Notes under the pieces: model-generated
Database searches by the model: none
The model's input: only the letters and a program-made list of their open reading frames with translations
What the model was told of the DNA's origin: nothing
Shown here: positions 4,630 to 42,616 of the stretch, in pieces
How the letters are laid out: each line of letters starts with the position of its first letter
Position numbering within the stretch: the stretch's first letter is position 1
Position numbers and translations under genes: made by a program
Origin: Lactococcus garvieae
GTDB lineage: Bacteria; Bacillota; Bacilli; Lactobacillales; Streptococcaceae
Assembly: GCF_016758115.1 (NCBI RefSeq)
Contig: NZ_WIVG01000008.1
Span: 1 to 59,030, forward strand
Reading direction: 5' to 3'
DNA: 59,030 bases

Positions 4630-4638
4630 TAAAATAAG

Positions 4639-12518: not shown

Positions 12519-12533
12519 GAAAGAGGCATGATT

Positions 12534-12611: not shown

Positions 12612-12635
12612 ACAGGCTAAAAATAAGGAGTTAGA

Positions 12636-13247
12636 ATGACCAACTACATTTTGAAGGAAGGCGATAACAGCCTTGCACCAATTTTAGTTTTACACAGTAC
12701 AGGCGGTGATGAACACCAGTTAGTGCCACTTGTGGAGGAATTATTTCCCAATCATCCTTTTTTGTCTATACGTGGGCGGATTAGTGAGCAGGGGATAAAT
12801 CGCTATTTTAAACTTAAGGGACAAGGATTTACGAAGGAAAACTTTGATTTGCTTTCCTTAGAAGAAGAGGCACAGTGGCTGACAAAGGAAGTTGAACGTT
12901 TAGGGCAGCACTACCAATTAGATCTCTCAAAGCTGAATGTTATTGGCTATTCAAATGGTGCCAATATGGCGCTCTACATGCAACTCAAAGGGTTGTTCAA
13001 GTTTGACAAAATCTTGGCTTTTCATGCCATGCAGCTTACAGAAGTTGGAACGCCAGTTCTTTCCGATGAGAGCAAAGTTTTTCTTACTCATGCGGACAAT
13101 GATCCGATTGTGAGTAGAGAAAATCTTAAAGAGCTCTCTACTGATTTGGAAAAAACGGAATGTCAGCTTGAAATATTTAAGGCCAAATTTGGGCATCAAC
13201 TGAGTGATGAAGAAATTTTAGCCGCAAAAAAATGGTTAGAAAAATAA
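12636..13247 (+). CDS. yahD: YahD-like alpha/beta serine hydrolase
   Basis: A 203-residue hydrolase of the phospholipase/carboxylesterase (MhqD) group. It has an oxyanion-loop motif LHSTGGDEHQL near the N-terminus, nucleophile elbow GYSNGAN (about residues 106-112), and a C-terminal Asp...His pair (THADND and FGHQLSDE). In L. lactis the homologue YahD is copper-inducible through CopR, which matches the cop boxes upstream. A good AAGGAG precedes the ATG. The natural substrate is unknown. Confidence 0.8.
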   Translation: MTNYILKEGDNSLAPILVLHSTGGDEHQLVPLVEELFPNHPFLSIRGRISEQGINRYFKLKGQGFTKENFDLLSLEEEAQWLTKEVERLGQHYQLDLSKLNVIGYSNGANMALYMQLKGLFKFDKILAFHAMQLTEVGTPVLSDESKVFLTHADNDPIVSRENLKELSTDLEKTECQLEIFKAKFGHQLSDEEILAAKKWLEK

Positions 13248-13324
13248 AAAAGAAGCTGACTCTAAAAGAGCACGTCTTCCCGATAGAAAAAATAATAGAA
13301 AAATTGAAAAAAGAGGAAAAACAA

Positions 13325-22483: not shown

Positions 22484-24031
22484 ATGATTACGAAAAATGA
22501 CAAAAAGATAAAAATTAAAGCGAGATATGTTACGAAACGTTTTGATTTAATCAGTACTAAAAGTGGTGAATCTCGCATTAAAAAAGCTTTTTTTCCGGCT
22601 AATAAACAAGATTTTTGGGCGTTGCGTAATGTATCTTTTGAGCTTTATGACGGTGAAACCATTGGTATTGTAGGACTCAATGGTTCAGGGAAATCAACAC
22701 TTTCTAACATTATTTCGGGTCAAATTTCACCAACGACAGGTCAAGTAGAAATTAATGGTGATGTCTCAATCATCTCTGCTTCCTCAGGTCTCAATGGAAA
22801 TTTGACGGGGCGTGAAAATATCCGACTTAAAGGGCTGATGTCAGGGATGTCTAAGCGTGAAATTGAGGAAAAAATGGAGGATATCATCGCTTTCTCCGAA
22901 CTCAAAGAGTTTATTGATCAACGTGTTAAGACCTATTCTTCCGGTATGCGCGCCAAACTGGGTTTTTCAGTTATGGTTCATCAAGATCCGGATATTATGG
23001 TTATTGATGAAGGATTAGCCACTGGGGATCAAACATTTGTTGGGAAATCACAGAAAAAAATGTTTGAATTTCGTGAAAAAGGGAAAACGATTTTGCTCGT
23101 TTCCCACTCCATCTCGACGGTGCGTTCTTGGTCGGATAAGGTATTGTGGCTTCATTATGGGGCGGTTAAAGAATACGGTCCAGTTGATGAGGTTTTGCCC
23201 AAGTATGAAGCTTTCATTCATTGGTTTAACGGTTTAGATCGGAAACAGCAGGAAGACTATAAAACCAAAGTCCGCCAAGAACAGCTGGCTTATTCCCTAG
23301 AAGAGTATAAAAAAGAACTTGGACGTTCAGAAACTAGAGAGACCAGAAAAGGGAAAAATAACCTTAAAAAATTTACCTCAAAAGCGATTAAGAAGAAGTC
23401 TAGTTTACCTACCAAGGTTTTACTGTTCTTTTTTGGTTTTCTATTTATTTGGCTTGTTTTAGTTAACACTTCTAAGGCAACTTTAATGACTTCATTAAAG
23501 AATCCGATCGGTTTCTTTGGCAACCATTTGTTTCAGCCTAAGCAGAGTTTTTTAGAACGTCAGAGAGAACAGGGCAATCTGCCGCCTGAACCTCCTCAAG
23601 AGGATAAAGCTCAGGAAGAAGCTGTTCAAGAAGAAGCAGATAAAAAACCAGATCAAAATGAAAACTCTCAAAATGAAGAAGAAAAAACAGAAGAAAGTAC
23701 GTCTAGGTTGGTAGAATACAGTATCCAAGCTGGTGATACTTTAGATGCTATTGCGCTCCGATTTCACACCAGTGTGGAGGAGTTGATTCGCCTGAACCAT
23801 GCGCAGGACTTAAGTGTTTTGATGGTGGGACAGATTATTCAAGTGCCAGAAAATCAAGCTTCAGGAGAAAGTGAAACCGCCTTGACAGAATATACCGTTC
23901 AAGCTGGCGATACCTTGGAGAGCATTGCACTCCAATTTCACACGAGCGTTGAGGAACTGGTTCGTTTGAATCAGGGGCAGGACTTAAGCCTGCTCATGGC
24001 TAATCAAGTAATCAAAGTCCCAGGGAACTAG
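22484..24031 (+). CDS. tagH: Teichoic-acid/polysaccharide exporter ATPase with two LysM repeats
   Basis: 515 residues. An ABC ATPase of the polysaccharide-export type: Walker A GLNGSGKST (64-72), signature YSSGMRAKLGF, Walker B IMVIDEGLATGD, H-loop LLVSHS. A charged linker, a single transmembrane helix (about 306-328), a Glu/Pro/Gln-rich stretch and two similar LysM domains (about 409-455 and 467-515; both have QAGDTL and FHTSVEEL) follow. It probably pairs with TagG and tethers the exporter to peptidoglycan. No Shine-Dalgarno is seen and the mRNA may be nearly leaderless. First gene of a 20-kb wall-polymer locus. Confidence 0.88.
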   Translation: MITKNDKKIKIKARYVTKRFDLISTKSGESRIKKAFFPANKQDFWALRNVSFELYDGETIGIVGLNGSGKSTLSNIISGQISPTTGQVEINGDVSIISASSGLNGNLTGRENIRLKGLMSGMSKREIEEKMEDIIAFSELKEFIDQRVKTYSSGMRAKLGFSVMVHQDPDIMVIDEGLATGDQTFVGKSQKKMFEFREKGKTILLVSHSISTVRSWSDKVLWLHYGAVKEYGPVDEVLPKYEAFIHWFNGLDRKQQEDYKTKVRQEQLAYSLEEYKKELGRSETRETRKGKNNLKKFTSKAIKKKSSLPTKVLLFFFGFLFIWLVLVNTSKATLMTSLKNPIGFFGNHLFQPKQSFLERQREQGNLPPEPPQEDKAQEEAVQEEADKKPDQNENSQNEEEKTEESTSRLVEYSIQAGDTLDAIALRFHTSVEELIRLNHAQDLSVLMVGQIIQVPENQASGESETALTEYTVQAGDTLESIALQFHTSVEELVRLNQGQDLSLLMANQVIKVPGN

Positions 24032-24130
24032 TCCATAGACAGCCTACAAGGAAAAAACTTCTTGATGACCGGAACTTTACTCCTTCCCTATCCGTACATA
24101 TCACATATATAAATCAGAAAGGTGTGCAAA

Positions 24131-24943
24131 ATGAGTAACGTCTTGCAATACTTTAAAGAACAAATACGATACTTACCCGTGGCTTATAACATGTCAAGAT
24201 ATAACACAAAAAGTGCAACCATGAGTAATCGGTTTGGCCGTGTTTGGGAAATCTTGGATCCCCTGTTTCAACTGGGTATATTTTACCTCTTGTTTGGCAT
24301 CCTGATGAAGCGTGTCATCCCCGGTGGTTATCCTGTGCTCCCTTGGATGTTTATTGGGCTTGGTGTCTGGGGACTCATGCAAAAAACAATAGTTTCGGGG
24401 GCTCTAACGACCTATAACCAGTTGCGTATGGCTTCTGTGATGAAGTTTCCCGTCAGCATACTTCCCACATCCGCTTTTTTTGGCTTTTTGAGTGAGTTTT
24501 GGATTATGATTACTGCGGGACTTATTGGAGCTATATATAATGGCTTTGTTCCTAGTCTTCACCTTTTACAAGTGATTTATTATTTCTTTGCCTTAGTTAT
24601 TTTTTCGGTTTCAACATCCTTATTAAATGCTACGATTATGATTGTCTTTCCTGACTTAAAGTTCTTTTTGAATTATTCATTTCGATTTTTAATGTTCATG
24701 TCAGGTGCCGTTTTTTCGATGAGGCAGTTCAATCAGATTCCGCAATTTTTACTCCAAGCCGTGATGATCAACCCCTTTTATTACTTGATTGAGGGCTTTA
24801 GAGATGCCATATTTGGCACCCAATGGTTCTGGGAAGTAGACCCCTCTATCATCCTGTCTTTTTGGGCAATTACCTCCTTCATTTTGTTATTAGGTACACA
24901 GTTGCACTATAACATTCGTGAACGTATTTCCGACTTTTTATAG
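24131..24943 (+). CDS. tagG: Teichoic-acid/polysaccharide ABC exporter permease
   Basis: 270 residues with six hydrophobic helices of the ABC-2 family; an amphipathic N-terminus (SNVLQYFKEQIRYLPV), then SNRFGRVWEILDPLFQ and INPFYYLIEGFRDAIFG near the C-terminus, as in TagG/RgpC. It translocates lipid-linked polymer with TagH. AAAGG lies 8 nt before ATG 24131; the earlier GTG in frame is less likely. It follows tagH, the reverse of the usual tagG-tagH order. Confidence 0.9.
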   Translation: MSNVLQYFKEQIRYLPVAYNMSRYNTKSATMSNRFGRVWEILDPLFQLGIFYLLFGILMKRVIPGGYPVLPWMFIGLGVWGLMQKTIVSGALTTYNQLRMASVMKFPVSILPTSAFFGFLSEFWIMITAGLIGAIYNGFVPSLHLLQVIYYFFALVIFSVSTSLLNATIMIVFPDLKFFLNYSFRFLMFMSGAVFSMRQFNQIPQFLLQAVMINPFYYLIEGFRDAIFGTQWFWEVDPSIILSFWAITSFILLLGTQLHYNIRERISDFL

Positions 24944-26413: not shown

Positions 26414-26444
26414 CAAGAAAAATAATCAAAAAAAGGGAACTAAA

Positions 26445-29031: not shown

Positions 29032-31134
29032 ATGATACTTTACTATGTACCTTTGCCAAACTATCTTCCAACTCTCATGACGCATAGAATGACCGTTAAT
29101 CGTGATAAAGAGGCAATTCTTTTACTGCATGATCAAGTAACACGTGTTGAAATAGAAGGTTATAAGGAATTTGATGGGGCAGATCTAGATATCCAGAAGA
29201 TGAAAAAGAGCGGGATTTTTTCAGATATCATAGTATTTGATTCATTTTTGATGAGGGAGCATGGTGTTGCACTAGCAGATGAAGAATTTTTATCCTTGTT
29301 TGATGAAAAAATGCTTAATATCGGAGTTGACTTAAAAAGTTTTGATGAATTTTATACGACAAATGAGCCTGATTTTGATTTTTCAAGATATCTATCGCTT
29401 AAACATATTAAAGCAACTTGGATTGAACCAACTGAGAATGAAGCTAATAAAAATGTAGAAGCTATGCAGCTTTTCAATCAAAAAGTAGTTGATTACATTG
29501 ATATTAGTACGTATACGATTTTGGTAAAAAAAGGTTCCTTGATACCGCATCTTGATAAGGCGAAAATAGCTACTTGGAATTACAAAGCTTCTTTAAACTC
29601 TCTTACATCTCAGGATTATAAAAAAATAAAGAAATTTTATAACCACTATGATATAGATATTGAGGAGAACTCAGTACTCATCTTAGCCCAAAATCCACGC
29701 TACTTTTTGGCACGTCGTCCTGTGCTGTCACCTCATAAAAATTCTGATTTCAATCTGACATTAAGCATCGGTTTTGATTTGCAAGAGAGCAGTTATCATA
29801 AAATGATTCCGCTTTTGTTATTTCAGTTACAGCTCGTATGGGATGTATTCGCTCAACATCATCAACACCTTTATGTTAAATGGCATCCACGAGCATATTT
29901 GAATGATGGAAAAGTAAAATCATTGACAAAATCTGAAAATTTGCACTCATTATCAACATTACCTGCTGATTTTTATCAGGGGAGTGACAGTAAAAAATTT
30001 GATAAAATGATAAGTTTTTCATCAACTGTTCAGTCGTTCGGAGATTTCTTTAACTCTAATGAGAAGGTTGCATTGGGTTTAGCTCATTTTGACTTATATC
30101 TGGATTACTTTAGAATAATTGTAGCTTTGAGGTTAATTTTAGAGCATACTCAGAGTCCAAAAATATATGCTTCGGGTTCATATGTGTCGCAGATTAACTT
30201 TATTCTAGAACACTATTTCATAACAAGTGTAAGAGCAAAAGAATTTGAAAACGAGACAATAGATGAGCAATCTTATTTGATACAAGGAACATTAAGCAGG
30301 TTATTAAAATTCCCTGGTACGACTATATTTTTCCATGAACTTAACAATGAAGTCCAACTGGAAAATATCCAAACCTTTAAGCTTAAAAAGAAAACCATAT
30401 CTGGAGATACTTTTGTACCTTTGAACATTGAGTATATAAATTTTTATAGCTCGAAGACACGGGACTTTTTGAAGAAAGAAGAAATACTCTTTGACATTGA
30501 GTTTAAAAACTCTAATGTGAAAATTGAGGTTGAAGCATTAGATTACTTTGAACAAAATATTATAGCAAGTTACTACATTAAGGAAATGGAACAACGTCAT
30601 ACATTTTCGGATTTGTCAGATAAGCAAGCACTTGTAGAGGGCTTGAAAATCGTTATGAAAAGTGATTTGGAGACTTCAATCAACGAAATTAAGAATTTTG
30701 AAGCCTATTTATTAGCGCTAAAAGAGTTGAAATCACAGCCTAATATTCTCGTGATGTTTAGTGTCAAAGATACTGCAGGTTATAGGATTTCTGATGTTCA
30801 TCTTAGTTTAATTAAAAAAATTGGTTTAACTTCGTTTACAAAAGAGACCTGGGTTCCATATGCATCTGTTTTTTTCAATGAATTTACTCTTGAAAGCTCA
30901 GGTTTGGAAAATTCGACAACCGCAATTGCCTCATATAAGAATGGATTAAAGCTTCTGGTTAAGTCAGCCCCTCTTCGTGCTGGCAATTATGCTGAGATTA
31001 TTGTAGACGGCATTGATTATGCTGTTAATCAACGTGGAGTAAATATCGTTGTATTTGATACTAAAGATAATAAATTAATTGACAGCGTGGCATTTGACAT
31101 GCATGATCCAGAAATGAAGGTTTATAGGAGATAA
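29032..31134 (+). CDS. Polysialyltransferase-like glycosyltransferase with C-terminal ILEI-like domain
   Basis: 700 residues, not recognised as a named enzyme. The middle carries features of bacterial CMP-sialic/ulosonic-acid transferases: an HP motif in VKWHPRAYL (about 283-291) and a Ser-Ser motif in SFSSTVQSF (about 326-334), in an order and spacing plausible for the polysialyltransferase/GT52 group. Residues about 563-700 resemble the ILEI/FAM3 domain: ILVMFSVKDTAG, LIKKIGL, then NQRGVNIVVFD and LIDSVAFDM. It is 1 nt after the GlfT2-like gene and just upstream of a KdsB-like synthetase, which would provide its CMP-sugar. Visibly more AT-rich than tagG. Confidence 0.6.
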   Translation: MILYYVPLPNYLPTLMTHRMTVNRDKEAILLLHDQVTRVEIEGYKEFDGADLDIQKMKKSGIFSDIIVFDSFLMREHGVALADEEFLSLFDEKMLNIGVDLKSFDEFYTTNEPDFDFSRYLSLKHIKATWIEPTENEANKNVEAMQLFNQKVVDYIDISTYTILVKKGSLIPHLDKAKIATWNYKASLNSLTSQDYKKIKKFYNHYDIDIEENSVLILAQNPRYFLARRPVLSPHKNSDFNLTLSIGFDLQESSYHKMIPLLLFQLQLVWDVFAQHHQHLYVKWHPRAYLNDGKVKSLTKSENLHSLSTLPADFYQGSDSKKFDKMISFSSTVQSFGDFFNSNEKVALGLAHFDLYLDYFRIIVALRLILEHTQSPKIYASGSYVSQINFILEHYFITSVRAKEFENETIDEQSYLIQGTLSRLLKFPGTTIFFHELNNEVQLENIQTFKLKKKTISGDTFVPLNIEYINFYSSKTRDFLKKEEILFDIEFKNSNVKIEVEALDYFEQNIIASYYIKEMEQRHTFSDLSDKQALVEGLKIVMKSDLETSINEIKNFEAYLLALKELKSQPNILVMFSVKDTAGYRISDVHLSLIKKIGLTSFTKETWVPYASVFFNEFTLESSGLENSTTAIASYKNGLKLLVKSAPLRAGNYAEIIVDGIDYAVNQRGVNIVVFDTKDNKLIDSVAFDMHDPEMKVYRR

Positions 31135-31222
31135 GGGCAGCAACCAGTCATTGTATACGCAAAAATTATTTTAAGGAATATTTCAACACAATAATTGTTG
31201 GAATTTAGGAGATTAAACGATT

Positions 31223-31918
31223 ATGAATAATTAAGTGGATGTAAGTATTATCATTCCTACATGGTCAATATTTAACAAAAAAGTTGATGGCAAACTAGCA
31301 ATTGAGGGAGGTTTAGAGTCCATTCAGAATCAATTACATGAAGGGTTCCAATTTGAACTTGTTTTTGTAGATGATGCTTCTCCTGATGAGACTGTGAAAT
31401 GGATAAAGGATTGGATAGAAAAACATCCAGAAATCCCTGCAACGATATATGTGTTAGGAAAAAACAGTGGAGGGCCTTCTGAACCACGTAATTTAGGCAT
31501 GAAAATGGCAAAAGGGAAGTATATTGCCTTTATGGATAACGATGATCAACTGGGGGGAGAAGGCTCACTCTACGAGATGTTTGTAAAACCTAGTCCTGAG
31601 ATTGTAGGAAAGGATTTCAAACTTTTCATTTCAAATAGAGAGCTAACTAGTTATATTTCATCCCCGTTTGAGGAAGAAATTACAATCAACATACAGAGCA
31701 TAAAGGAGTTTTTAGTCCGTAATAAAACCATTGATTTTTATGTTGGGCGTGAAACAGAAGCAGGAATAGCTGCCACGAAAATAGCTGGTAAATATAGCGA
31801 AAAAATCTACCCTTATCTTTCAAAAAATAAACGTCCAGTTTTGTACACTTGGGAGGATGAAAAATCAATTGAATTGTATGTAAATTGGAAAGGCGGTTTG
31901 GGTTTATTGGTTGAATAA
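31223..31918 (+). pseudogene. GT2 glycosyltransferase, stop at codon 4 and shortened
   Basis: The natural start ATG at 31223, 8 nt behind TTAGGAG, is followed by AAT AAT TAA: the frame is broken at codon 4. Reading resumes without shift at GTG 31235, directly after the stop, giving 227 residues with GT-A motifs VSIIIPTWS, VDDASPDET, SEPRNLGM and FMDNDDQ. The sequence then jumps into what looks like the C-terminal domain of larger (about 480-aa) tag transferases, so an internal deletion is likely too. Reinitiation at TAAGTG could still give some product. It sits between the sialyltransferase-like and KdsB-like genes. Confidence 0.6.
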
Positions 31919-31954
31919 GTATAGGGGTAAGTAGTATGACATGGAAGGAGTAGC

Positions 31955-32788
31955 ATGGCTGAGAAAAAAAATATTGGTGTCATTCCGGCGCGTTATGCAA
32001 GTTCAAGGTTCCCAGGAAAACCGTTGGTTGATTTTTTCGGTCGACCAATGCTCTGGTGGGTTTACAGTCAAATGAAACTTGTTGAGCAATTATCAGAAGT
32101 TTACGTGGCGTGTGATGACACACGAGTAGCTGAAGTTTGTGAAATGTACAATATACCGTATGTGATGACTAAAGTTTCTCATGCGACGCATTTAGACCGA
32201 TTAAGTGAATTTTCTGAAAAAGTAGATGCGGATTTCTATATAAATGTTAATGGTGATGAACCTTTAGTGGAGCTACAGGGAATTTTAGACTTGCTACCTC
32301 CTGATAAAGTTAAAGCGAACGAGAGTTATGCTGCAAACGGTATGATGATTTTAACAGAGCCGATAGAGGCCATTGATACCAGCAAAATAAAAATTGCAAC
32401 AGATGTGTATGGTAATGGTTTATACATGGCTAGGACTCCTATTCCATATCCTAAAGGTAAAGGGGACTACCAGTTAAAAAAATTTGTGGGCATCCAATGT
32501 TTTACGAAAAGTGCATTGAAATTTGTTTCTAATCATACTAGAGGTCCTATTGAGGAAATCGAAGACATTGATGAATATAGATTTCTTGAATATGGACATA
32601 AGCTAAAGTTTGTTTTGACAAATGTTAAAACTTTGAGTGTAGACACAAGAAAAGATGCTGAAAAAGTAAGAGGAATCTTGTTTGAACGAATAGCAAATGA
32701 TGAAGTTCCTTTTTTGGATGATAATTTAAGAAACGAGATGTTGATGACTGCTAAAGCACAAAATTTTGACAAGTTATCAAGGGGCTGA
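31955..32788 (+). CDS. KdsB-like cytidylyltransferase (CMP-ulosonate synthetase)
   Basis: 277 residues of the CMP-Kdo synthetase family: PARYASSRFPGKPL (about 10-23, CTP site), ACDDTRVAEVC, the acidic VNVNGDEPLV (about 92-101) and MARTPIPYPKG. The usual HxxGTDRL segment reads HATHLDRL, and the protein is about 30 residues longer than KdsB, so the sugar acid may not be Kdo. GGAG precedes the ATG. Such enzymes are a mark of Gram-negative LPS; here the gene lies in a Gram-positive wall locus with an aldolase and a phosphatase. Confidence 0.8.
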   Translation: MAEKKNIGVIPARYASSRFPGKPLVDFFGRPMLWWVYSQMKLVEQLSEVYVACDDTRVAEVCEMYNIPYVMTKVSHATHLDRLSEFSEKVDADFYINVNGDEPLVELQGILDLLPPDKVKANESYAANGMMILTEPIEAIDTSKIKIATDVYGNGLYMARTPIPYPKGKGDYQLKKFVGIQCFTKSALKFVSNHTRGPIEEIEDIDEYRFLEYGHKLKFVLTNVKTLSVDTRKDAEKVRGILFERIANDEVPFLDDNLRNEMLMTAKAQNFDKLSRG

Positions 32789-32815
32789 AGTGACAGCATT
32801 AGAAATAGGGTATAA

Positions 32816-33829
32816 ATGAAAAAAATAAAACTACTAGATGTAACCCTCCGCGATGGAGGTTACACAAATAATTGGCAATGGGGAAAAGAGGATATTGGCA
32901 CTGTTCTAGGGGCCTTAAAACAATCAAAAGTCGATATTATTGAATTAGGATTTTTACGAGATACTGCCCAAAATGAGGAAAAATCTGTAGTTTTCAATAG
33001 TATTGATAGTGCAAATAAGTTACTAGCTAAACATGGTATTACTTATGCAGCCATGATGATTGAGCATGGTAAGGTTAACCTTGAAAATGTTCCAAGTTAT
33101 GCGGATACAAGTGGTCAAGTTAAACTCCTGCGCGTGACGATCCATAAGGAAAATATTGCAGCGGGAGTTGAGTTTTCTCAAAAACTCATTGATAAAGGCT
33201 ATGATGTTAGCTTCCAACCTACTGCTGTGTCAAGTTACAGTATTGCTGAATATGTTGATTTAATACAACAAGTTCAAAAAATGCGTAATTTATACGCTTT
33301 CTATATTGTTGATACTTTTGGAGCAATGTATCGGAGTGATGTTTTACTTAAATTTAATATTGCCAATGACATGTTGGAGGATGAGGTCGTTATTGGTTGG
33401 CATTCACACAATAATTTACAGCTTTCATACTCATTGACAACCACGCTTATTACTGAACCCACAAATGTCTCAAATCGTACTTTTATGATTGATGCTTCTA
33501 TATTTGGCATTGGGCGTGGGGCTGGGAATCTTAATATTGAGATTATTATAGGTGCGTTGAACGCAATGGAGGATCGGTACCATGTGACGCCACTTTTGTC
33601 AGTTATTAATATTATGAAAAAATATGATTTCGGCTATGATGTACCGTTTTATATTACAGCCAAGCTTGGCTTACACCCTACATATGGGCTGTTTATCAAG
33701 GATAATTATCCAGATATGGAAATGCCAATAATGTATAAAATTATGAAAGCTATTCCTGAATCTGAAAAAATTGAATATGATCAAGAGTTAATCGAAAAAT
33801 TAAGTAAAGACTGGCTTGGTAGAGCATGA
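32816..33829 (+). CDS. HMGL/DmpG-type (DRE-TIM) aldolase
   Basis: 337 residues. The TIM-barrel signature LLDVTLRDGGY is at about 6-16 (catalytic Arg and metal-binding Asp), the metal His pair is in GWHSHNNLQLS (about 194-204), and GIGRGAGNLNIE follows. These define the DRE-TIM metallolyases that join or cleave pyruvate- or acetyl-CoA-derived carbanions; no CoA-binding extension is seen, so a pyruvate aldolase like 4-hydroxy-2-oxovalerate aldolase is most likely. Between a CMP-ulosonate synthetase and a phosphatase it may make the 2-keto-3-deoxy acid from pyruvate and an aldehyde sugar. Its stop overlaps the next start (ATGA). Confidence 0.8.
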   Translation: MKKIKLLDVTLRDGGYTNNWQWGKEDIGTVLGALKQSKVDIIELGFLRDTAQNEEKSVVFNSIDSANKLLAKHGITYAAMMIEHGKVNLENVPSYADTSGQVKLLRVTIHKENIAAGVEFSQKLIDKGYDVSFQPTAVSSYSIAEYVDLIQQVQKMRNLYAFYIVDTFGAMYRSDVLLKFNIANDMLEDEVVIGWHSHNNLQLSYSLTTTLITEPTNVSNRTFMIDASIFGIGRGAGNLNIEIIIGALNAMEDRYHVTPLLSVINIMKKYDFGYDVPFYITAKLGLHPTYGLFIKDNYPDMEMPIMYKIMKAIPESEKIEYDQELIEKLSKDWLGRA

Positions 33830-34488
33830 AAAAAGGGATTATATTCGACTTAGATGGTACATTATTAGATACTTCAGAAGGTATATTTAGCTCTGTACGC
33901 TATGCGCTTTATAATATGAACGTTCATGACTTCCATGAAGAGCGTCTCCGAGAATTTGTCGGCCCTTCTCCTATAAAGGCTTATCAAGAAATTATTGGTT
34001 TATCAGAGACTGCAGCACGTGAAGCCACTACTTTTCATCGTGCCTATGGTAAGGAAAAAGGCATTTATCAAGCTGAACCTTATTTAGGAATGACGGAGTT
34101 ATTATCAGAATTGAAGGAGAAAGGCTATAAACTTGGAGTTGCTACTTTAAAAAGACAAGATATTGCTGAAGAAATTCTTGAAAATTTTAAAATAGCAAGT
34201 TGTTTTGACAAAATTGTTGGGATTGACTTCGAAGAAAAGCTGACTAAAACAGATACAATTAATCTCGTATTACAAGGTTTAGACTTGAAAAATGAGGAAG
34301 CGCTTATGATCGGCGACACCAAAGGAGACTTTCAAGGGGCAAATAATGCAGGGGTAGATTTCATAGCTGTAACTTATGGTTTTGGTTTTAATCAAGATAC
34401 AGACTATTCTACCTTTGTTAAACAGCCCCTTGGAATTGCAAACAATACTTTAGAGCTTAAAGAGATAATCTCTAAGCTTTCACCGTGA
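33826..34488 (+). CDS. HAD-superfamily phosphatase
   Basis: 220 residues: motif I DLDGTLLDT (nucleophile Asp8), a helical cap, motif II ATLK, and motif III/IV IGDTKGDFQGA. It belongs to the phosphoglycolate-phosphatase-like group. Its 4-nt overlap with the aldolase gene suggests it dephosphorylates that enzyme's product, comparable to KdsC or a neuraminate-9-phosphate phosphatase. The substrate is inferred from context. Confidence 0.8.
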   Translation: MKKGIIFDLDGTLLDTSEGIFSSVRYALYNMNVHDFHEERLREFVGPSPIKAYQEIIGLSETAAREATTFHRAYGKEKGIYQAEPYLGMTELLSELKEKGYKLGVATLKRQDIAEEILENFKIASCFDKIVGIDFEEKLTKTDTINLVLQGLDLKNEEALMIGDTKGDFQGANNAGVDFIAVTYGFGFNQDTDYSTFVKQPLGIANNTLELKEIISKLSP

Positions 34489-34565
34489 GGTAACTTAATA
34501 ATAGTGAGGGAGAATGGCGTCAGTTTTTAATGTTCTTCTCTTATATTCTTGACTTGAGAAAATAT

Positions 34566-36299
34566 ATGAAAAAAATATTGATTGCAAATCGTGGTGAGAT
34601 TGCATTACGCATCATGCAAGCAGCCTCTGAGATGGGGATTGAAACGGTCGCCATCTATGCAGAAGAAGACAAATTCTCGATGCATCGATTTAAGGCGGAT
34701 GAAGCTTATCGGATTGGACAGGGGAAAAAAGCTGCGGAAGCCTATCTGGAGATTGAGGATATTATCAAGCTTGCCCAAGAGACTAATGTAGATGCTATTC
34801 ATCCTGGCTATGACTTTTTATCTGAAAATATTGATTTTGCACGTAAAGTGGAAGAAGCAGGATTAATTTTTATTGGACCAAACTTGAAACATTTGGATAC
34901 TTTTGGAGATATGATTAAAGCGAAGCGGGCTGCGGAAGCTACTGGCATTCGAAGTCTCCCTGAAACAGCTGATACTGTGAATTTAGAAGATGCATTGGAT
35001 TTTGCAAGAGTTCATGGTTATCCAGTAGCAATAAAATCTGCCTTATTAGATGATTGCAGGCTGCGTGTGGTTCGTAATGAAGCTGAAATGCGCGTGGGTT
35101 ACGCCCGTGCTAAGTCTGAATCACAAACTTTTGCTGGTTCTAGTCGTGTCTATGTCGAAAAATATATTGAGAATGCTAAACATATTGAAGTTCAAATTTT
35201 GGGAGATCAGCATGGCAACGTGAGGCAGCTCTTTGAACGGGATTGCTCAATTCAATGGAGAAGCCAAAAAATTATCGAACTTGCCCCTGCGGTAGGTCTT
35301 TCTCAAAGCTTAAGAATGCACATAAATAATGCTGCGTTAAAACTTGCTAAAAGTGTTGATTATGTTAATGCAGGGACAGTTAAGTTTTTAGTGACTGATG
35401 ATGACTTTTACTTCACTGAAGTAAAACCTTGTATACAAGCCTCGCATACCGTTACTGAAATGATTACAGGCATTGATATTGTTGTGAGTCAACTCAAAAT
35501 CGCGATGGGACTGAGTCTTGAATCTATCGGGATTCCCGAGCAATCACAATTGAAAACGTTAGGCGTAACCCTCCAAGCTCGGATAAGAGCTGAGAAACCA
35601 GAAAGTAACTTTTATCCAGCCACTGGGAAAATAGAAACTTACTATGCATCAGGAGGATGCGGAGTGAGACTTGATCTCGGCAATGCTTATGTGGGCTATG
35701 AGCTTCTACCGCATTTTGACACTTTATTGGTAAAAGCTGTAACTTATGCACCTGATTTTAATGAAGCCGCACGGAAGATGGCTCGTGTATTGCGTGAATT
35801 TTGCATTCAAGGTGTTGAAACAAATCTTCCTTTCTTGATAAATATTGTTGAGCATCCAGTTTTTTTAACAGGTCAAGCTAAAACCAGTTTCATTGACCAA
35901 ACTCCCGAACTTTTTACTTCCGAGCCCACAGTCAGCCAGTCTACAAAAATTTTAAATTATATTTCAGATATAACAGTCAATGGTTTCCCAGATCTTGAAG
36001 ATAAAATCAACCCTTTCTTTTTGATGTACCCACAAGTACTTTTAGACTATAAAGAAAAACAAAAAAGATACGGAGCAATTACTCACTTAGATACCCCAAC
36101 ATTTTTTAGTGGTATGTGTCAAGGCGAAAAAATAGAAGTTCAGTTGGAAAAAGGAAAGGTTTTGGTTATCCATTTGGAGGTGATTGGTGCTGTTGATGAT
36201 AATGGATATCGTACACTTTTCTTCAAAATAAATGGAGAGCGGCGTGAGATAAGGATAGAAGACCACTCTGTTCAAGAGCAAAATGTTGAAAGTCTTTGA
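34566..36299 (+). CDS. Pyruvate-carboxylase-derived pseudoenzyme (no carboxyltransferase or biotin domain)
   Basis: 577 residues from ATG 34566. Residues 1-450 align with the biotin-carboxylase part of pyruvate carboxylase (starts KKILIANRGEIALR). The glycine-rich ATP loop is replaced (KSALLDDCRLR, about 156-167), and the catalytic EVNPRxQVEH reads EVKPCIQASH (about 286-295). At about residue 481 (NGFPDLEDKIN, then PFFLMYP) the sequence jumps over the whole carboxyltransferase domain into the tetramerisation domain (TPTFFSGM), and it ends before the biotin carrier domain. Carboxylation is therefore not expected. The frame is intact, which argues for a kept non-catalytic role or recent decay. 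Weak ribosome site. Confidence 0.8.
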   Translation: MKKILIANRGEIALRIMQAASEMGIETVAIYAEEDKFSMHRFKADEAYRIGQGKKAAEAYLEIEDIIKLAQETNVDAIHPGYDFLSENIDFARKVEEAGLIFIGPNLKHLDTFGDMIKAKRAAEATGIRSLPETADTVNLEDALDFARVHGYPVAIKSALLDDCRLRVVRNEAEMRVGYARAKSESQTFAGSSRVYVEKYIENAKHIEVQILGDQHGNVRQLFERDCSIQWRSQKIIELAPAVGLSQSLRMHINNAALKLAKSVDYVNAGTVKFLVTDDDFYFTEVKPCIQASHTVTEMITGIDIVVSQLKIAMGLSLESIGIPEQSQLKTLGVTLQARIRAEKPESNFYPATGKIETYYASGGCGVRLDLGNAYVGYELLPHFDTLLVKAVTYAPDFNEAARKMARVLREFCIQGVETNLPFLINIVEHPVFLTGQAKTSFIDQTPELFTSEPTVSQSTKILNYISDITVNGFPDLEDKINPFFLMYPQVLLDYKEKQKRYGAITHLDTPTFFSGMCQGEKIEVQLEKGKVLVIHLEVIGAVDDNGYRTLFFKINGERREIRIEDHSVQEQNVESL

Positions 36300-36458
36300 G
36301 CATGTAAAATGCACAAATAATATATTTTAGTAATCTTTACTGTCACTATTTGAGGAGACTTTCTCATTACGCCTTAGTAATAACCTAGAATAATGATTTC
36401 ATTTAAAAAGTATCTCAAGACAATTTTTAAAAATTTAACCCGCAAAAAGGAGAACATC

Positions 36459-37476: not shown

Positions 37477-38622
37477 ATGAAGCATAACACTAAAAATTAC
37501 GATTATCTCATTGTTGGTACAGGTCCTTATGGCTCTATTTTTGCCTATGAGGCTGCCAAACGAGGCAAACGTGTACTCATGATTGACAAACGCGACCATA
37601 TCGGTGGGAACATGTATACGCGCAAGGAACAGGGGATTAATGTTCATGAATATGGGGCACATATTTTTCATACGGATAATAAAGAAGTCTGGGACTATAT
37701 CAACCAGTTTACGGAGTTCAATAACTACATTAATCAGGTAGTCGCAGACTATAAGGGAGAACGTTATAATCTTCCTTTCAATATGAATACTTTTTACCAG
37801 ATGTGGGGCACTAAAACGCCAGAAGAAGCAGCAGCCAAAATTGCAGAACAACGTGAAGCAGCTGGAGTAATCGCTCATCCTAAAAACTTAGAAGAACAAG
37901 CCATCTCTCTCATCGGTACAGATATCTATGAAAAGCTAATCAAGGGCTATACTGAAAAACAATGGGGGCGTTCTGCCACAGAACTTCCAAGTTTTATCAT
38001 CAAGCGCCTTCCTGTTCGTTATCTTTATGACAACAACTATTTCAATCATCGTTATCAAGGTGTACCAGTGAATGGTTATACGTCTATTTTTGAGAAGATG
38101 CTTGCTTCTGACCTGATCGATGTGCAGTTAAGCGTGAATTTCTTTGCGGATAAAGAAGCTTACTTGGCAGAATTTCCACGGATTATTTATACAGGTATGA
38201 TTGATAGCTTTTTTGACTACATACACGGTGAGTTAGAGTGGCGTTCTCTACATTTTGAGCATGAAATACACGACTCTAACAATGTTCAGGGAAATGCCGT
38301 GATTAATTACACAGATGCCGAGACACCTTATACGCGAGTGATGGAGTGGCGGCATTTTGATCAAAACTCTGACGAGGGCAAGAGTGTGATAACCAAAGAA
38401 TACCCTCAAAATTGGGACAAAACTAAGGAAGCTTATTATCCAGTTAACGATCATAAAAATTCTGAGATATTCAAACTTTACCGTAAAGAGGCAGATAAGA
38501 TAGCGGATAAAGTCAAGTTTGGTGGCCGTTTAGGGAATTATCAATACTACGATATGGATATGGTTTTCCATGCAGCGCTGGTTGATGTGGCAAAAGAATT
38601 CAAAAATTTTGATGTTTCATGA
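37477..38622 (+). CDS. glf: UDP-galactopyranose mutase
   Basis: 381 residues; converts UDP-galactopyranose to UDP-galactofuranose using reduced FAD. N-terminal FAD motif GTGPYGSIFAYEAAKRGK, then RDHIGGN, EYGAHIFHT and the substrate loop PFNMNTFYQMWG, all family hallmarks; GGRLGNYQYYDMD near the C-terminus. The ribosome site is weak. It provides the donor for the GlfT2-like enzyme upstream. Confidence 0.95.
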   Translation: MKHNTKNYDYLIVGTGPYGSIFAYEAAKRGKRVLMIDKRDHIGGNMYTRKEQGINVHEYGAHIFHTDNKEVWDYINQFTEFNNYINQVVADYKGERYNLPFNMNTFYQMWGTKTPEEAAAKIAEQREAAGVIAHPKNLEEQAISLIGTDIYEKLIKGYTEKQWGRSATELPSFIIKRLPVRYLYDNNYFNHRYQGVPVNGYTSIFEKMLASDLIDVQLSVNFFADKEAYLAEFPRIIYTGMIDSFFDYIHGELEWRSLHFEHEIHDSNNVQGNAVINYTDAETPYTRVMEWRHFDQNSDEGKSVITKEYPQNWDKTKEAYYPVNDHKNSEIFKLYRKEADKIADKVKFGGRLGNYQYYDMDMVFHAALVDVAKEFKNFDVS

Positions 38623-38683
38623 TTAAAGGCGCTGAAAACAAGCCAAATACAAATGATCAAAGCAAAGCTAGGGAGAATCAGTC

Positions 38684-39871
38684 ATGACATGGGTGAGTTT
38701 TTTGGGGAACTTAAGGCGCGTTGTATTAAAGTCCTTGCTTGCAATATTTTTATACCTCTTAACCTTTTTCATTAAGCGAGAACCCAAGATGGTTCTTTTT
38801 GCTAGTTATAATGGCAAATCAGTAGGGGACAGCCCTGGCGCTATCTTTGAAGCTTTACGGGAACATCCTGCTTATTCGGACTATCAGCTGGTTTGGGCTT
38901 TAAAAAAGCCCTATCCCGTTGCAGGAGCTGCTCAGGTGGTTAAGTTCAACAGTTTGGCTTACTACAAAGCCTTAGTCAAGGCAAAATACTGGGTTTTCAA
39001 TGCCAAAATGGCCCCTTACTATCACAAGGCTAAAGACCAGATTTACCTTCAAACTTGGCATGGTACGCCTCTGAAACGTTTAGGGCATGATATTGAAGAC
39101 ACAGGTAAACATTATCGTGCCTATCTGACGCACGGGCAAATGGTCAAATCTTATGATCAAGACAGTAGGCACTGGGATTGGCTGATTGCACCTTCTTCCT
39201 TTGCAGCTGAAAAATTTGAAACGGCTTTTCAGTTTCCTCGAGAAAAAATGATTCAAGTAGCCTATCCAAGGACAGATGTGTTGAGCAAAGCAACGCCTGA
39301 AAAAGTGAAACAACTCAAAACAACCTATAAGTTGCCTTTAGATAAAAAGGTCATCCTCTATGCCCCCACTTGGCGGGATGATACTTATGGCTTAGACGGT
39401 TACCATATCAAGCTACAAGTTGATTTTGCACGTTGGAAAACTGTGCTGGGTCAAGATTACGTTGTCCTGTTCAAACCGCATTATTTAATTTCAAATCAAG
39501 TTCAGATTGATGCGAACCTAAGAGATTTTGTGTTCTCGATGCCTGCGACTTCGGACATTCATGAAGCTTATCTTATGGCAGATGTATTAGTAACAGATTA
39601 TTCATCGGTTTTCTTTGACTATGCTATTTTGAATCGCCCTATTTACTTTTATATGTATGACTTAGATGTTTATGGCACAGCTTTGCGCGGCTTTTATCTG
39701 GATGTGCAGGATGACCTCCCCAGCTCGCCATTTCAGACGGAGGATGAACTTCTTTTCGCCATTCGGGATAAGAACTTTGATCAGGAACGGCTGAGAGTTT
39801 TTAATCAGCGCTTTAATCCCTGGGCGCAAGGCAACAGCAGCCAAAAAATTATTGAAAAGATTATGCAGTAG
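38684..39871 (+). CDS. CDP-glycerol glycerophosphotransferase-like protein (TagB/TagF family)
   Basis: 395 residues. An amphipathic/hydrophobic N-terminus anchors it to the membrane; the GT-B domain has TWHGTPLKRLG, LYAPTWRDD, FKPHYLI and VTDYSSVFFDYA, the family motifs. Adds (poly)glycerol-phosphate units from CDP-glycerol to a lipid-linked chain. It is the short (primase/TagB-length) form. AGGGA before the ATG. Confidence 0.88.
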   Translation: MTWVSFLGNLRRVVLKSLLAIFLYLLTFFIKREPKMVLFASYNGKSVGDSPGAIFEALREHPAYSDYQLVWALKKPYPVAGAAQVVKFNSLAYYKALVKAKYWVFNAKMAPYYHKAKDQIYLQTWHGTPLKRLGHDIEDTGKHYRAYLTHGQMVKSYDQDSRHWDWLIAPSSFAAEKFETAFQFPREKMIQVAYPRTDVLSKATPEKVKQLKTTYKLPLDKKVILYAPTWRDDTYGLDGYHIKLQVDFARWKTVLGQDYVVLFKPHYLISNQVQIDANLRDFVFSMPATSDIHEAYLMADVLVTDYSSVFFDYAILNRPIYFYMYDLDVYGTALRGFYLDVQDDLPSSPFQTEDELLFAIRDKNFDQERLRVFNQRFNPWAQGNSSQKIIEKIMQ

Positions 39872-39954
39872 AGAGGATTTCCTTTCTTTTTTTATCAAAT
39901 GTTAAAGTTTCAAATACATAACTTTAATTTATTGACGAAAAAGTTGTAATCTCG

Positions 39955-39982
39955 TTGCAAAAGATATAAATAATGATATAAT
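39955..39982 (+). promoter_or_regulatory. Promoter of the LCP gene
   Basis: TTGCAA (39955-39960), a 16-nt spacer and TATAAT (39977-39982); a second TATAAT-like box lies about 10 nt further on. It makes the distal tag genes independent of the long operon. Confidence 0.65.
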
Positions 39983-40057
39983 TGGATATAATGTGACGAA
40001 AAATGTTACAAAAGAAATGTTTGTGTAGTTATATATGTGATAGAAAAAGAGGTCAGT

Positions 40058-41005
40058 ATGGCAATGAACAGAAGCAAGAAAAAACAGCAGAAAAAGAAAC
40101 ATCCGATAAGGAATGCAATATTAATTACTTTAGGACTTCTCCTTGTTACAGGGACAGCTTTTGCGGCCTTTTTCTACCAGACAGCAAGAGTAAATATTGA
40201 TAAAACCTATGCTCCACTGGAAACTTCAAAAAACCAAGCGGAGGCCAGCCGTGCGATCAGTGAAAATAAACCTTTATCTTTTCTGATTATGGGTCTTGAC
40301 TCGCGGCAGGAAGATTTATCAGGCAGAACGGACATCTTGATGCTTGTTACAGTTAATCCTACAAAAAAGCAAACGACCATGGTCTCCATTCCTCGAGATA
40401 CCTTTATTGAGTCTGCAGATGGTTCCATTACAGCCTCTAATAAGATTAATGCTGCTTATGTTCAGGGAGGAGCAGCAGCTTCTATAGCAGCTGTCAACCA
40501 ATTGCTTCAACTGGATATTGATCATTATGTGACGATGAATTTTAGCGGTATTGAACATCTGGTTGATGCTTTAGGCGGGATAACCGTTAACTCTGACCTA
40601 GATTTTAACGTTGACGATATGACTTTTCATAAGGGAGAAAATACTTTAAATGGTAAGGAAGCTCTTGCTTATGTTCGTATGCGCCATGACGATCCAAGGG
40701 GGACTTATGGACGAGAAAAGCGCCAACAAGAAGTTATCGCTGCTATTCTAAGTAAGATAAAATCTCCGCAAAGTCTCACGGCTTATCAAGGTATTCTTGA
40801 AGCTCTGGGTGGAAATGTTAAAACAGATTTGACTTGGGATCAGATGCAAAAAATCGTACTGAATTATAATCAAGCTTTTGGTAATGTCGTCCATGAATCC
40901 ATTCAAGGACAAGGACAGATGCTCAATAGCTTAAGTTTTCAAGTAGTGACTGAAGACGAAAAAACACGCGTTCGTAACTTGCTTCAAGAGCAATTAGCAC
41001 AATAA
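40058..41005 (+). CDS. LytR-CpsA-Psr (LCP) family wall-polymer ligase
   Basis: 315 residues. A Lys/Arg/Gln-rich cytosolic start, one transmembrane helix (about 22-42), then the extracellular LCP domain with FLIMGLDSR, GRTDILMLVTVNP, SIPRDTFI, NKINAAYVQGG and AYVRMRHDDPRGTYGREKRQQ, which hold the pyrophosphate and Mg-binding Asp/Arg residues. It attaches the polymer to peptidoglycan. AGAGG 5 nt before ATG 40058 favours that start over GTG 40037. Confidence 0.92.
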   Translation: MAMNRSKKKQQKKKHPIRNAILITLGLLLVTGTAFAAFFYQTARVNIDKTYAPLETSKNQAEASRAISENKPLSFLIMGLDSRQEDLSGRTDILMLVTVNPTKKQTTMVSIPRDTFIESADGSITASNKINAAYVQGGAAASIAAVNQLLQLDIDHYVTMNFSGIEHLVDALGGITVNSDLDFNVDDMTFHKGENTLNGKEALAYVRMRHDDPRGTYGREKRQQEVIAAILSKIKSPQSLTAYQGILEALGGNVKTDLTWDQMQKIVLNYNQAFGNVVHESIQGQGQMLNSLSFQVVTEDEKTRVRNLLQEQLAQ

Positions 41006-41018
41006 TTCATCAATCAAT

Positions 41019-41047
41019 CCTCCTTAGTGCCTTTAGGTACAAGGAGG
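41019..41047 (+). promoter_or_regulatory. CCTCCTT/AAGGAGG hairpin between LCP and TagD-like genes
   Basis: CCTCCTT (41019-41025) pairs with AAGGAGG (41041-41047), with GTGCC/GGTAC continuing the stem around TTTA. No T-run follows, so it is not a typical terminator. It locks a perfect Shine-Dalgarno that lies 27 nt before the next ATG, too far to serve it directly. Confidence 0.5.
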
Positions 41048-41074
41048 ACAGCGTATTAACACGAGAATAAATGG

Positions 41075-41488
41075 ATGAAAGAAAAAATAACTCTAGTAGC
41101 AGGAAGCTTTGACATTTTGCACGAAAGTCATAGTGATATGTTAAGACATGTTCGAAATTTGGGAGACAGGCGTATTGTGATGCTTTCTACAGATAAATTT
41201 AAGGAAGGAAAGAATAAAAAAGCCTATAAAAACTGTAATACTAGAAAATGCGTTTTAGAAGCGATGCGATGGGGGAATCTAGTGGTTTCTGAGCAATCAT
41301 GGGAGGATAAGGGCTTGTATATTGATAGGTTTGATGTTGATATATTTGCTATGGGAGAGGAGTGGCATGAAAAACTTGCCTTTTTGAAGGAGAAATTTCC
41401 TGAGCTAAAAATTATGTATTTTTCTCGCGGCAAGCACTCTTCAAGTCAAATCAAAAAAGATTTAAAATACAGTTTTAAAGAAGAATGA
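41075..41488 (+). CDS. TagD-like cytidylyltransferase with eroded active site
   Basis: 137 residues with the fold and length of glycerol-3-phosphate cytidylyltransferase: VAGSFDILH, LGDRRIVMLSTDKF, KKAYKNCNTRKCVLEAMRW, DVDIFAMGEEW. Two signatures are altered: HxGH reads HESH (Gly to Ser), and RTxGISTT reads RGKHSSSQ. A normal TagD would make CDP-glycerol for the two phosphotransferases here; this copy may be inactive or have another role, with a second tagD elsewhere. No clear ribosome site. Confidence 0.75.
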   Translation: MKEKITLVAGSFDILHESHSDMLRHVRNLGDRRIVMLSTDKFKEGKNKKAYKNCNTRKCVLEAMRWGNLVVSEQSWEDKGLYIDRFDVDIFAMGEEWHEKLAFLKEKFPELKIMYFSRGKHSSSQIKKDLKYSFKEE

Positions 41489-41500
41489 CAGAGGTTTTTA

Positions 41501-42616
41501 GTGAAATTTAAAGCGATTGTATTAACTCTTATTTTGTCTTTCTTTTATCCATTTACTTTTCTTTCGCGCCTGCACAAAAATCGAATTACCTTTATCTCTC
41601 TAGAGCATGATAACCTCTCAAAAGATTTTAAAATTTTGTATGAAGCTCTAGCCGCAGAACAGAGATATGAGCTGAAAACTTTGTTGTTCAAGTTCAAGCC
41701 AACATTTTTAGGAAATCTCCGATATGGCCTGGCTTGTATCAGACAGCTTTTTATCATCCAAAGTTCAAAGTTGGTTATCATTGACTACAATAATTTTGTG
41801 ATTTCTAAATTTCCTCACAGAAGCAAAGTCAAAGTATTGGAAGTATGGCATGCGACAGGTGCGTTGAAGAATTTTGGAAACAAGGTAGAGCGTGATTATG
41901 AAGTTAAAAACTATGACTATGTCATTGCGAACTCTGATTTTTTTAAAAAGATTTATGCTGAAGCCTTCAACCTCTCAGAGAAAAATGTACTTGTAACAGG
42001 CATACCTAACAATGATAAAATTTTTGATTCGGACTTTGTAGATAAAACAAGAAAAAGACTCTTGGAAAAGTATCCTTTCATAGAAAATAAAACAGTTATC
42101 ACTTACGCTCCGACATTCCGTGGCCGTATAAGCACTCATTTTAGAGAAGTCGCTATAGATTTGGAGCGTGTGCAGAAAGCCCTAGGGAGCGACTACATTA
42201 TTATTTATAAGGCACACCCTTTGATTCCAGATTCAAGATATGCTGACACTCCTAATGTTCTCTTTATTGAGGATGAATTAATTTCCTCAATTTTTTGTGT
42301 GAGCGATGTTCTAATAACAGATTATTCTGCTATTGCTATTGATTGGATGATTTTTGACAAGCCTGTTGTTGCTTATGTTCCTGATTTTAAAAAATATTCA
42401 ATGAAACCAGGATTAACCATTGATTACAGGAATGAATTTCCAGGTCAGTTGGCATTTAATGAAGATGACCTGATCAGAGCACTTCAAAGCTGTAAGGACG
42501 ATGAATATAAGAAAAAAAGAAGTGATTTTTTCAAAAAAACTTACCAATACAGCGATGGAAAATCAACAGGTAGAGTGATTTCGATGATTCATTCTATTAT
42601 GAATGATGCTTTGTAG
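41501..42616 (+). CDS. CDP-glycerol glycerophosphotransferase-like protein (TagB-like)
   Basis: 371 residues from GTG 41501 with GAGG 6 nt upstream. A hydrophobic N-terminus (about 5-22), then the GT-B domain with WHATGALKNFG, TYAPTFRG, YKAHPLIPD and ITDYSAIAIDW. Paralogue of the 38684 gene; one may act as primase and the other on a different acceptor. It lies 13 nt after the TagD-like gene. Confidence 0.88.
   Translation: MKFKAIVLTLILSFFYPFTFLSRLHKNRITFISLEHDNLSKDFKILYEALAAEQRYELKTLLFKFKPTFLGNLRYGLACIRQLFIIQSSKLVIIDYNNFVISKFPHRSKVKVLEVWHATGALKNFGNKVERDYEVKNYDYVIANSDFFKKIYAEAFNLSEKNVLVTGIPNNDKIFDSDFVDKTRKRLLEKYPFIENKTVITYAPTFRGRISTHFREVAIDLERVQKALGSDYIIIYKAHPLIPDSRYADTPNVLFIEDELISSIFCVSDVLITDYSAIAIDWMIFDKPVVAYVPDFKKYSMKPGLTIDYRNEFPGQLAFNEDDLIRALQSCKDDEYKKKRSDFFKKTYQYSDGKSTGRVISMIHSIMNDAL

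Follow-up and report, generated by a model that had tools for sequence, protein, structure and literature searches.

Three consecutive genes in the genome of a gut Lactococcus probably form a module that makes a sugar acid activated with cytidine monophosphate (CMP) for the decoration of a wall polymer; the acid would be built by a pyruvate-type aldolase and is probably not 3-deoxy-manno-octulosonate (Kdo). The genes lie on the plus strand of contig NZ_WIVG01000008.1, of which we analyzed a stretch of 59,030 nucleotides (the window). They encode a predicted KdsB-like CMP-ulosonate synthetase (31955..32788, 277 aa), a DRE-TIM aldolase of the HMGL/DmpG fold (32816..33829, 337 aa), and a HAD phosphatase (33826..34488, 220 aa). 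Known CMP-activated sugar acids (Kdo and the sialic, legionaminic, and pseudaminic acids) are built with phosphoenolpyruvate (PEP). Here, the aldolase would condense pyruvate with a short sugar aldehyde, probably phosphorylated, to form a 2-keto-3-deoxy sugar acid, and this step would stand in place of the PEP-using KdsA or NeuB step. The HAD enzyme would then dephosphorylate the 2-keto-3-deoxy acid phosphate, the synthetase would couple the acid to CMP, and a transferase, perhaps a 700-aa protein encoded upstream (29032..31134), would add the ulosonate to the wall polymer specified by the neighboring genes. We infer the donor, the aldehyde, the order of steps, the transferase, and the polymer. 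The same scheme had been proposed in an initial annotation of this DNA. Its core, a class II pyruvate-type aldolase feeding a KdsB-like synthetase together with a HAD enzyme, is well supported by recurrence of the genes and by viral fusions, whereas the role given to the 700-aa protein can only be suggested.

All genes named in the initial annotation were present, at or inside 29032-34488, and the ATGA overlap that it described between the aldolase and HAD genes was borne out (spacing, -4 bp). The synthetase and aldolase genes are 27 bp apart. Pfam assigned the synthetase to CTP_transf_3 (E value of 5e-35), the aldolase to HMGL-like (2e-18), and the phosphatase to HAD_2 (2.7e-41). The phosphatase carries the DxDGT motif as DLDGT and reached no equivalog cutoff among the 25 of 41 NCBIfam models listed. 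No NeuB match was found in the 2.3-Mb genome that contains the window (G000), and its one DAHP_synth_1 match, a 345-aa protein, was read from its length and sequence as the DAHP synthase of aromatic synthesis. With neither KdsA nor NeuB detected, no candidate other than the aldolase was seen for formation of the acid.

The aldolase and the synthetase recur together in IMG/VR contigs, which are predicted to be viral and come from uncultured sources. A scan with an aldolase alignment (A3) yielded 60 loci, or 37 clusters at 90% identity, and in 31 of these clusters a cytidylyltransferase was fused to the aldolase or located beside it. In 21 clusters, the aldolase and a KdsB-type synthetase made up one open frame of 537 to 589 aa (uncut frames), with the aldolase at approximately residues 1 to 330 and the synthetase at approximately 330 to 570; both domains were found by Pfam in loci L118 (fusion at 4001-5710) and L133 (3998-5692). 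Ten clusters had a separate cytidylyltransferase gene within 200 bp (a weak match in L112), and six had none in the stretch examined, including L157, which ends at the contig end. All six rows of A3 came from synthetase-neighbored loci and the search patterns were derived from A3, so these frequencies describe this type of aldolase rather than HMGL proteins at large. The same cytidylyltransferase hidden Markov model (HMM) found no match at 24 LeuA-like loci or at 24 loci with other RDGG aldolases; the flanks of these controls were shorter (~1.5 kb), and the viral pairs also fall within that distance. Among 50,697 named phage records, nine matched a fusion protein, none of them across more than 80% of its length. 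That the link between aldolase and synthetase is not due to chance is hard to doubt, and the gene fusion and conserved gene order support the two enzymes acting in one pathway.

A gene of the GT29 sialyltransferase family was found within ~2 kb of the pair in four viral loci (L116, L117, L118, and L141). The aldolase and synthetase genes are separate in L116; in L117, the fusion gene overlaps a HAD gene at its end. With a home-made HMM built from the four hits, GT29 neighbors were detected in 7 of 31 synthetase-bearing clusters and in none of the 6 others, numbers too small for a strong claim. HAD was rejected as a specific viral partner: with one locus taken per cluster, a DxDG-type HAD was found near 11 of 31 synthetase-bearing and 5 of 6 synthetase-free clusters. 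Viral contig L152 (7042-7884) contains a NeuB gene (Pfam E value of 1e-40) and a NeuA-like gene along with an aldolase-KdsB fusion, that is, two ulosonate routes side by side.

In bacteria, a gene-neighborhood search, suggested with the initial annotation, found the order cytidylyltransferase-aldolase-HAD in the window strain, in the type strain Lactococcus ileimucosae DSM 107391 (L002), and in genomes G026 and G056, and the order aldolase-KdsB-HAD in three Leisingera plasmids. The lactococcal framing of that annotation was too narrow, since the module also occurs in other Bacillota, in the Leisingera plasmids, and in viral contigs. Within Bacillota, it is rare and patchy. At an E value of 1e-40, the aldolase was found in 4 of 335 Streptococcaceae genomes (two of L. 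ileimucosae, G026, and G056) and, in an order-wide sample, in 3 of 395 genomes, with a different context in G788. A looser profile at 1e-30 matched 27 of 398 genomes in a phylum-wide sample, and only G000 and G157 had a cytidylyltransferase within ~1.5 kb. A second sample of the phylum yielded no matching genomes beyond those of the first, and a class-level search gave a single genome. Of 30 listed records, 7 had their surroundings checked by HMM; a cytidylyltransferase was found in one of these (Leisingera), and two of the seven are unannotated. The aldolase of a Legionella plasmid lies in a different gene context.

The composition of the module varies. G026 and G056 combine a NeuA-like cytidylyltransferase and a HAD phosphatase with an aldolase whose C terminus carries an extra domain. 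In G138 and G157, a KdsB-like gene is followed by an aldolase with the extra domain and then by a PfkB kinase gene that overlaps the aldolase gene; no HAD of the type in the trio was found in the stretches examined. The extra domain of the bacterial aldolases is weakly similar to MptE-like and GT29 proteins. Viral contig L102 has the same kinase-bearing order, and the synthetase in the KdsB place is of the NeuA type there and in L066 and L067. The kinases of G138 and G157 scored 539 to 548 bits against the kinase half of a KHG/KDPG aldolase-kinase fusion model, whose cutoff of 700 applies to the whole fusion, and 232 to 234 bits against a KDG/KDGal kinase model (cutoff, 440). These neighbors hint at a six-carbon acid like KDG (2-keto-3-deoxygluconate).

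The predicted structure of the aldolase, another check proposed at the outset, is a DRE-TIM barrel with an HxH metal motif (predicted local distance difference test score [pLDDT] of 92.4, from 24 aligned sequences). Its best family models were those of 4-hydroxy-2-oxovalerate aldolase, with scores far below the cutoffs (85.3 versus 229 bits and, for TIGR03217, 74.9 versus 286 bits), and isopropylmalate synthase models gave at most 37 bits. The best structural match was 3dxi (BVU_2661, a putative aldolase N-terminal domain from Bacteroides vulgatus; Z score of 32.4, residues 4 to 310). DmpG-type aldolases aligned over residues 1 to 336 with Z scores of 29 to 31 (1nvm, 30.8), while isopropylmalate, homocitrate, and citramalate synthases and HMG-CoA lyases aligned only to residue ~273. 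Pyruvate-bound enzymes are among the fold neighbors. In a fold search against viral protein models, the one match below 1e-3 was an HMGL-like protein of Klosneuvirus. All 24 aligned aldolases share RDGGY (including R12 and D13), E43, R106, H196, and H198. The histidine that follows RDG in DmpG relatives, which we take to be catalytic in DmpG, is Tyr16 in the window aldolase and a tyrosine in all 24 sequences. The modeled enzyme looks like a metal-dependent aldolase, yet by family tests it is not DmpG.

In the aldolase tree, the window protein grouped with those of L002, L066, L067, L068, L069, L070, and L032 (support, 100/100; several branches are long). The Leisingera aldolase (L033) fell in a different clade, which implies that the tie to a cytidylyltransferase either is old or is present in two or more lineages of the aldolase. 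The neighbors in the aldolase and synthetase trees were similar. L070 (bacterium G504) and viral contigs L109 and L110 encode a related aldolase beside a 603-aa protein resembling enzymes dependent on thiamine pyrophosphate (TPP), an aminotransferase-like protein, and a HAD gene, without a cytidylyltransferase; an aldolase of this type possibly serves another sugar pathway.

The 700-aa protein had been described as polysialyltransferase-like, and the HP and Ser-Ser motifs on which this description was based are present, but no family match was obtained. HP285 is found in both alleles, and the serine motif is SST330 in the window and STS331 in the type-strain allele; an HP...S[ST] pair with such spacing arises in 4 to 6% of shuffled sequences. 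The motif set of bacterial polysialyltransferases includes D/E-D/E-G, which is absent from both alleles. The protein had no PDB sequence match of weight, a profile search of solved structures returned nothing, and a model built with only the two alleles available was unusable (pLDDT of 34.5). A stretch near the C terminus is ILEI-like, below threshold. No relatives were found in 146 near genomes besides the type strain, and none were confirmed in viral contigs. Other module loci encode other candidates: MptE-like proteins in L067 and L068 and, in L066, a protein with all three motifs, D/E-D/E-G included, and no Pfam match.

The chance is only a little short of even that the scheme holds as far as the CMP-sugar but that another enzyme of the locus adds the ulosonate, the 700-aa protein transferring glycerol phosphate or some other group. 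The HP and DYSA motifs that it has in common with the CDP-glycerol-type transferase at 41501-42616, the missing D/E-D/E-G motif and family match, and the different candidates in L066, L067, and L068 all favor this explanation. Arguing for the 700-aa protein itself, its gene is the nearest large gene without an assignment upstream of the trio, and the distance from HP to serine, 45 residues, is close to the 43 of the three-motif candidate in L066.

The synthetase sequence bears on the identity of the acid. Its CTP-binding motif, IPARYASSRFPGKPL, agrees with the KdsB pattern IPARxxSSRxPGKPL, the proteins of solved structure most closely related to it are KpsU and KdsB, and it passed the cutoff of NCBIfam PRK05450.1-5 (197.7 versus 193 bits). 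It failed that of the kdsB equivalog TIGR00466 (123 versus 155.2 bits). Ordinary KdsBs are marked by SGT[DE]R, QGDEP, YFSR, HxGxYxYR, and ExLEQLR, and most aldolase-linked synthetases by TGTDR, QGDEP, YxSR, QVCIYxF, and EDIEILR. The histidine of HxGxYAYR was present in all 13 controls and in none of 35 aldolase-linked rows (32 Gln, 2 Phe, and 1 Ala). The residue after the first glutamate of ExLEQLR was aspartate in 0 of 13 controls and 35 of 35 aldolase-linked rows, and the glutamine of LEQLR was found in 11 of 13 and 0 of 35, respectively. Four of the controls were solved KdsBs, and the other nine came from plasmid and phage records. The 35 rows are related to one another and do not represent 35 separate events; L066, L067, L102, L112, and L126 were omitted from the counts as NeuA type or not alignable. 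The histidine was retained in a Synechococcus phage KdsB annotated beside KdsA and in two Rhodobacterales control KdsBs that depart from the KdsB pattern in other columns.

In the window, the sugar-domain motifs read THLDR, NGDEP, FVGIQCFT, and EDIDEYR and so differ from those of KdsB. GDEP is kept, but an asparagine precedes it where KdsB has glutamine; phenylalanine occupies the histidine column, and glutamate takes the place of the glutamine of LEQLR. The window and type-strain proteins carry the class marks (Thr in THLDR, Asp in EDIDEYR, and no His) and are altered further. Presumably, the histidine and glutamine of the KdsB sugar domain contact Kdo. We read the changed positions as pointing to a substrate other than Kdo, perhaps also unlike that of the rest of the class, and the ulosonic acid made is probably not Kdo. 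Kdo binding is placed in the C-terminal domain of KdsB by PMC3149649.

In a tree of 36 synthetases, from which six NeuA-type, weak, or truncated rows were left out, the four solved KdsBs separated from all 32 aldolase-linked proteins with moderate support (94/80), and the window protein grouped with L068 and L069, also with moderate support (89/87). It is unlikely that the trio makes ordinary CMP-Kdo, with the aldolase replacing KdsA on arabinose 5-phosphate, the HAD enzyme acting as KdsC, and the synthetase being a diverged KdsB. Database models do name the synthetase a 3-deoxy-manno-octulosonate cytidylyltransferase, KpsU and KdsB are its closest solved relatives, and the gene set parallels KdsA-KdsC-KdsB; against these stand the failed kdsB cutoff, the histidine and aspartate counts above, and the split from the solved KdsBs in the tree.

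The window strain and the type strain belong to one species. Outside the body of the 700-aa gene, the two loci are 91 to 96% identical in DNA, and the three proteins of the trio are 98 to 99% identical, with frames open in both strains. The 700-aa proteins (5360-7489 in the type strain) are only 37 to 39% identical, except for the last ~40 residues, which are near identical. A swapped allele beside a conserved trio is the pattern expected for a variable surface polymer. Synonymous divergence between the strains was 0.02 to 0.06 for the trio and 0.28 for the exporter permease, and we infer a recent exchange from the lower values. The ratio of nonsynonymous to synonymous divergence (dN/dS) was 0.046 for the aldolase and 0.32 for the synthetase, each based on few changes.

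Two genes next to the trio, neither of them mentioned in the initial annotation, show signs of decay. Between the 700-aa and KdsB-like genes lies the remnant of a GT2 glycosyltransferase gene (31235..31918, plus strand). Compared with the intact type-strain gene, which encodes 508 aa, it has a nonsense mutation at codon 4 and has lost 825 bp in frame; a 7-bp repeat is common to both ends of the deletion. Downstream of the trio is a gene derived from pyruvate carboxylase (34530..36299, plus strand; 11715-13481 in the type strain), which retains the biotin carboxylase part and a short PYC_OADA match and is ~60% identical to the full-length pyruvate carboxylase frame of the genome, on contig C43. 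No carboxyltransferase or biotin domain was found in its product. Judged by eye against what we take to be the consensus, the glycine-rich ATP loop is lost and residues of the EVNPRVQVEHT type are changed in both strains. The frame remains open in both (dN/dS of 0.34), and the product is probably a pseudo-enzyme within the wall-polymer locus.

A module that works elsewhere but is decaying or idle in the window strain could be read from these neighbors, from the swapped transferase allele, and from the window synthetase, whose sugar-domain motifs are unusual and whose dN/dS is 0.32. We consider this quite unlikely: the three frames are open and 98 to 99% identical in protein sequence between strains, the CTP, RDGG/HxH, and DxDGT motifs are intact, and the aldolase dN/dS is low, if likewise based on few changes.

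Very unlikely is an aldolase with another donor or a non-sugar acid product that the synthetase then activates, as in a Claisen-type or phosphonate-linked pathway; the superfamily does include users of acetyl coenzyme A, and the gene of a distant RDGG relative (L073) is flanked by genes read by eye as PEP mutase and split TPP decarboxylase, but aldolase-type models outscore isopropylmalate synthase (74.9 to 85.3 versus at most 37 bits), the model aligns to residue 336 with DmpG-type aldolases and only to ~273 with Claisen enzymes, the linked synthetases are mostly KdsB type and some NeuA type, and four loci have a GT29 gene close to the pair. The known substrates of the KdsB and NeuA families are ulosonic acids. 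The phosphonate version is kept as a minor rival; neither aldolase nor HMGL is mentioned in the parts of PMC6697681 available to us. By its sequence, L073 may itself belong to a possible phosphonate pathway, with its RDGG aldolase flanked by the PEP-mutase-like and split TPP-dependent-decarboxylase-like genes.

Several observations weigh against a CMP-ulosonate module that decorates the wall polymer. Carboxyltransferase domains of the pyruvate carboxylase type align over the whole aldolase model, at lower Z scores (22 to 24). For L070 and L032, whose aldolases are closely related to that of the window, the stretch examined contains no cytidylyltransferase, and HAD genes also occur near aldolases without a synthetase. 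In three loci a KDG-type kinase occupies the phosphatase position, which would point to the opposite phosphate logic. The window synthetase is an outlier of its class, with phenylalanine and glutamine where the QVCIY consensus has glutamine and tyrosine. The 700-aa protein matched no Pfam family above its cutoff, and its HP (and DYSA) motif recurs in a CDP-glycerol-type transferase of the same locus. Finally, with its adjoining GT2 gene broken, the window strain may make an altered polymer or none.

The genes around the trio mark the locus by content as one for a wall polymer. UDP-galactopyranose mutase, two CDP-glycerol-type transferases, a LytR-CpsA-Psr protein, and a CTP_transf_like (TagD-like) protein are encoded on the plus strand at 37477..42616, and by this gene content the polymer would be of a galactofuranose plus glycerol-phosphate type. 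A polymer-export ABC transporter (22484..24943, plus strand) consists of an ATPase with LysM repeats (22484-24031) and an ABC-2 permease (24122-24943); the ATPase carries two LysM stretches at its C terminus. Next on that strand are genes for a GT2 glycosyltransferase (24953-26413) and for a protein whose GlfT-type matches are all weak and below threshold (26439-29030). A GH43-family protein, by eye without a signal peptide, is encoded inside the locus at 36393-37382.

The trio resembles the CMP-Kdo pathway (KdsA, KdsC, and KdsB) in its KdsB-type synthetase with intact CTP motifs and in the parallel sequence of condensation, HAD phosphatase, and CMP activation. It differs in that the condensing enzyme of the window is a DRE-TIM aldolase rather than a PEP-using synthase and in that the aldolase-linked synthetase fails the kdsB cutoff (in the window), differs at conserved sugar-domain positions, and is sometimes fused to the aldolase. 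With the CMP-sialic, -legionaminic, and -pseudaminic acid pathways (NeuB and NeuA), it shares the activation of an ulosonic acid by CMP and, in L066, L067, and L102, a NeuA-type synthetase, but an aldolase is present where no NeuB was found in the window genome. DmpG-type aldolases and BVU_2661 have the same predicted fold and the RDG and HxH motifs; unlike in DmpG-type enzymes, scores of the window aldolase lie far below the family cutoffs, tyrosine replaces the histidine after RDG, and the neighbors in the window include a synthetase and no acylating dehydrogenase.

The Klebsiella K38 capsule sugar is a five-carbon ulosonic acid. As a lead, K38 was dropped, the main text of a paper on 79-type cps loci containing, in the portion available, no aldolase, cytidylyltransferase, or ulosonic term. 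Searches with the names of short ulosonic acids returned no surface-sugar paper among titles and abstract openings. In the literature searched (titles, abstract openings, and passages of PMC4616057 and PMC12409901), no such module was recognized among the matches listed, and L. ileimucosae was not named. PMC12599335, which deals with the wall polymers of related lactococci, mentions no aldolase, CMP, or ulosonic acid in its main text, as far as available. Streptomyces teichulosonic acids are, according to parts of PMC7831098, Kdn-galactose wall polymers (Kdn, 2-keto-3-deoxynonulosonic acid). In them, as proposed for the window strain, an ulosonic acid forms part of the wall polymer of a Gram-positive bacterium, but theirs is a Kdn polymer of an actinomycete, whereas the lactococcal polymer is read from gene content.

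More broadly, we hold it an even question whether the module represents a new class of CMP-ulosonate synthesis that spans Bacillota, Alphaproteobacteria, and many viruses of microbes. Such a class would use a metal-dependent pyruvate aldolase, often fused to the synthetase, to make shorter or different acids (e.g., of the six-carbon KDG type); it would decorate the wall polymer of L. ileimucosae, and the viruses would modify their own surfaces, or those of their hosts, with it. The sequence signature described here separates the aldolase-linked synthetases from KdsB, and the fused viral enzyme permits a direct one-pot test. If the proposal is true, the name kdsB is wrong for those genes of this class that bear it, and a pyruvate-aldolase route to CMP-sugar acids would constitute a new enzyme logic, with a version contained in one protein. 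The origin of rare short ulosonic acids in surface polymers could then be explained.

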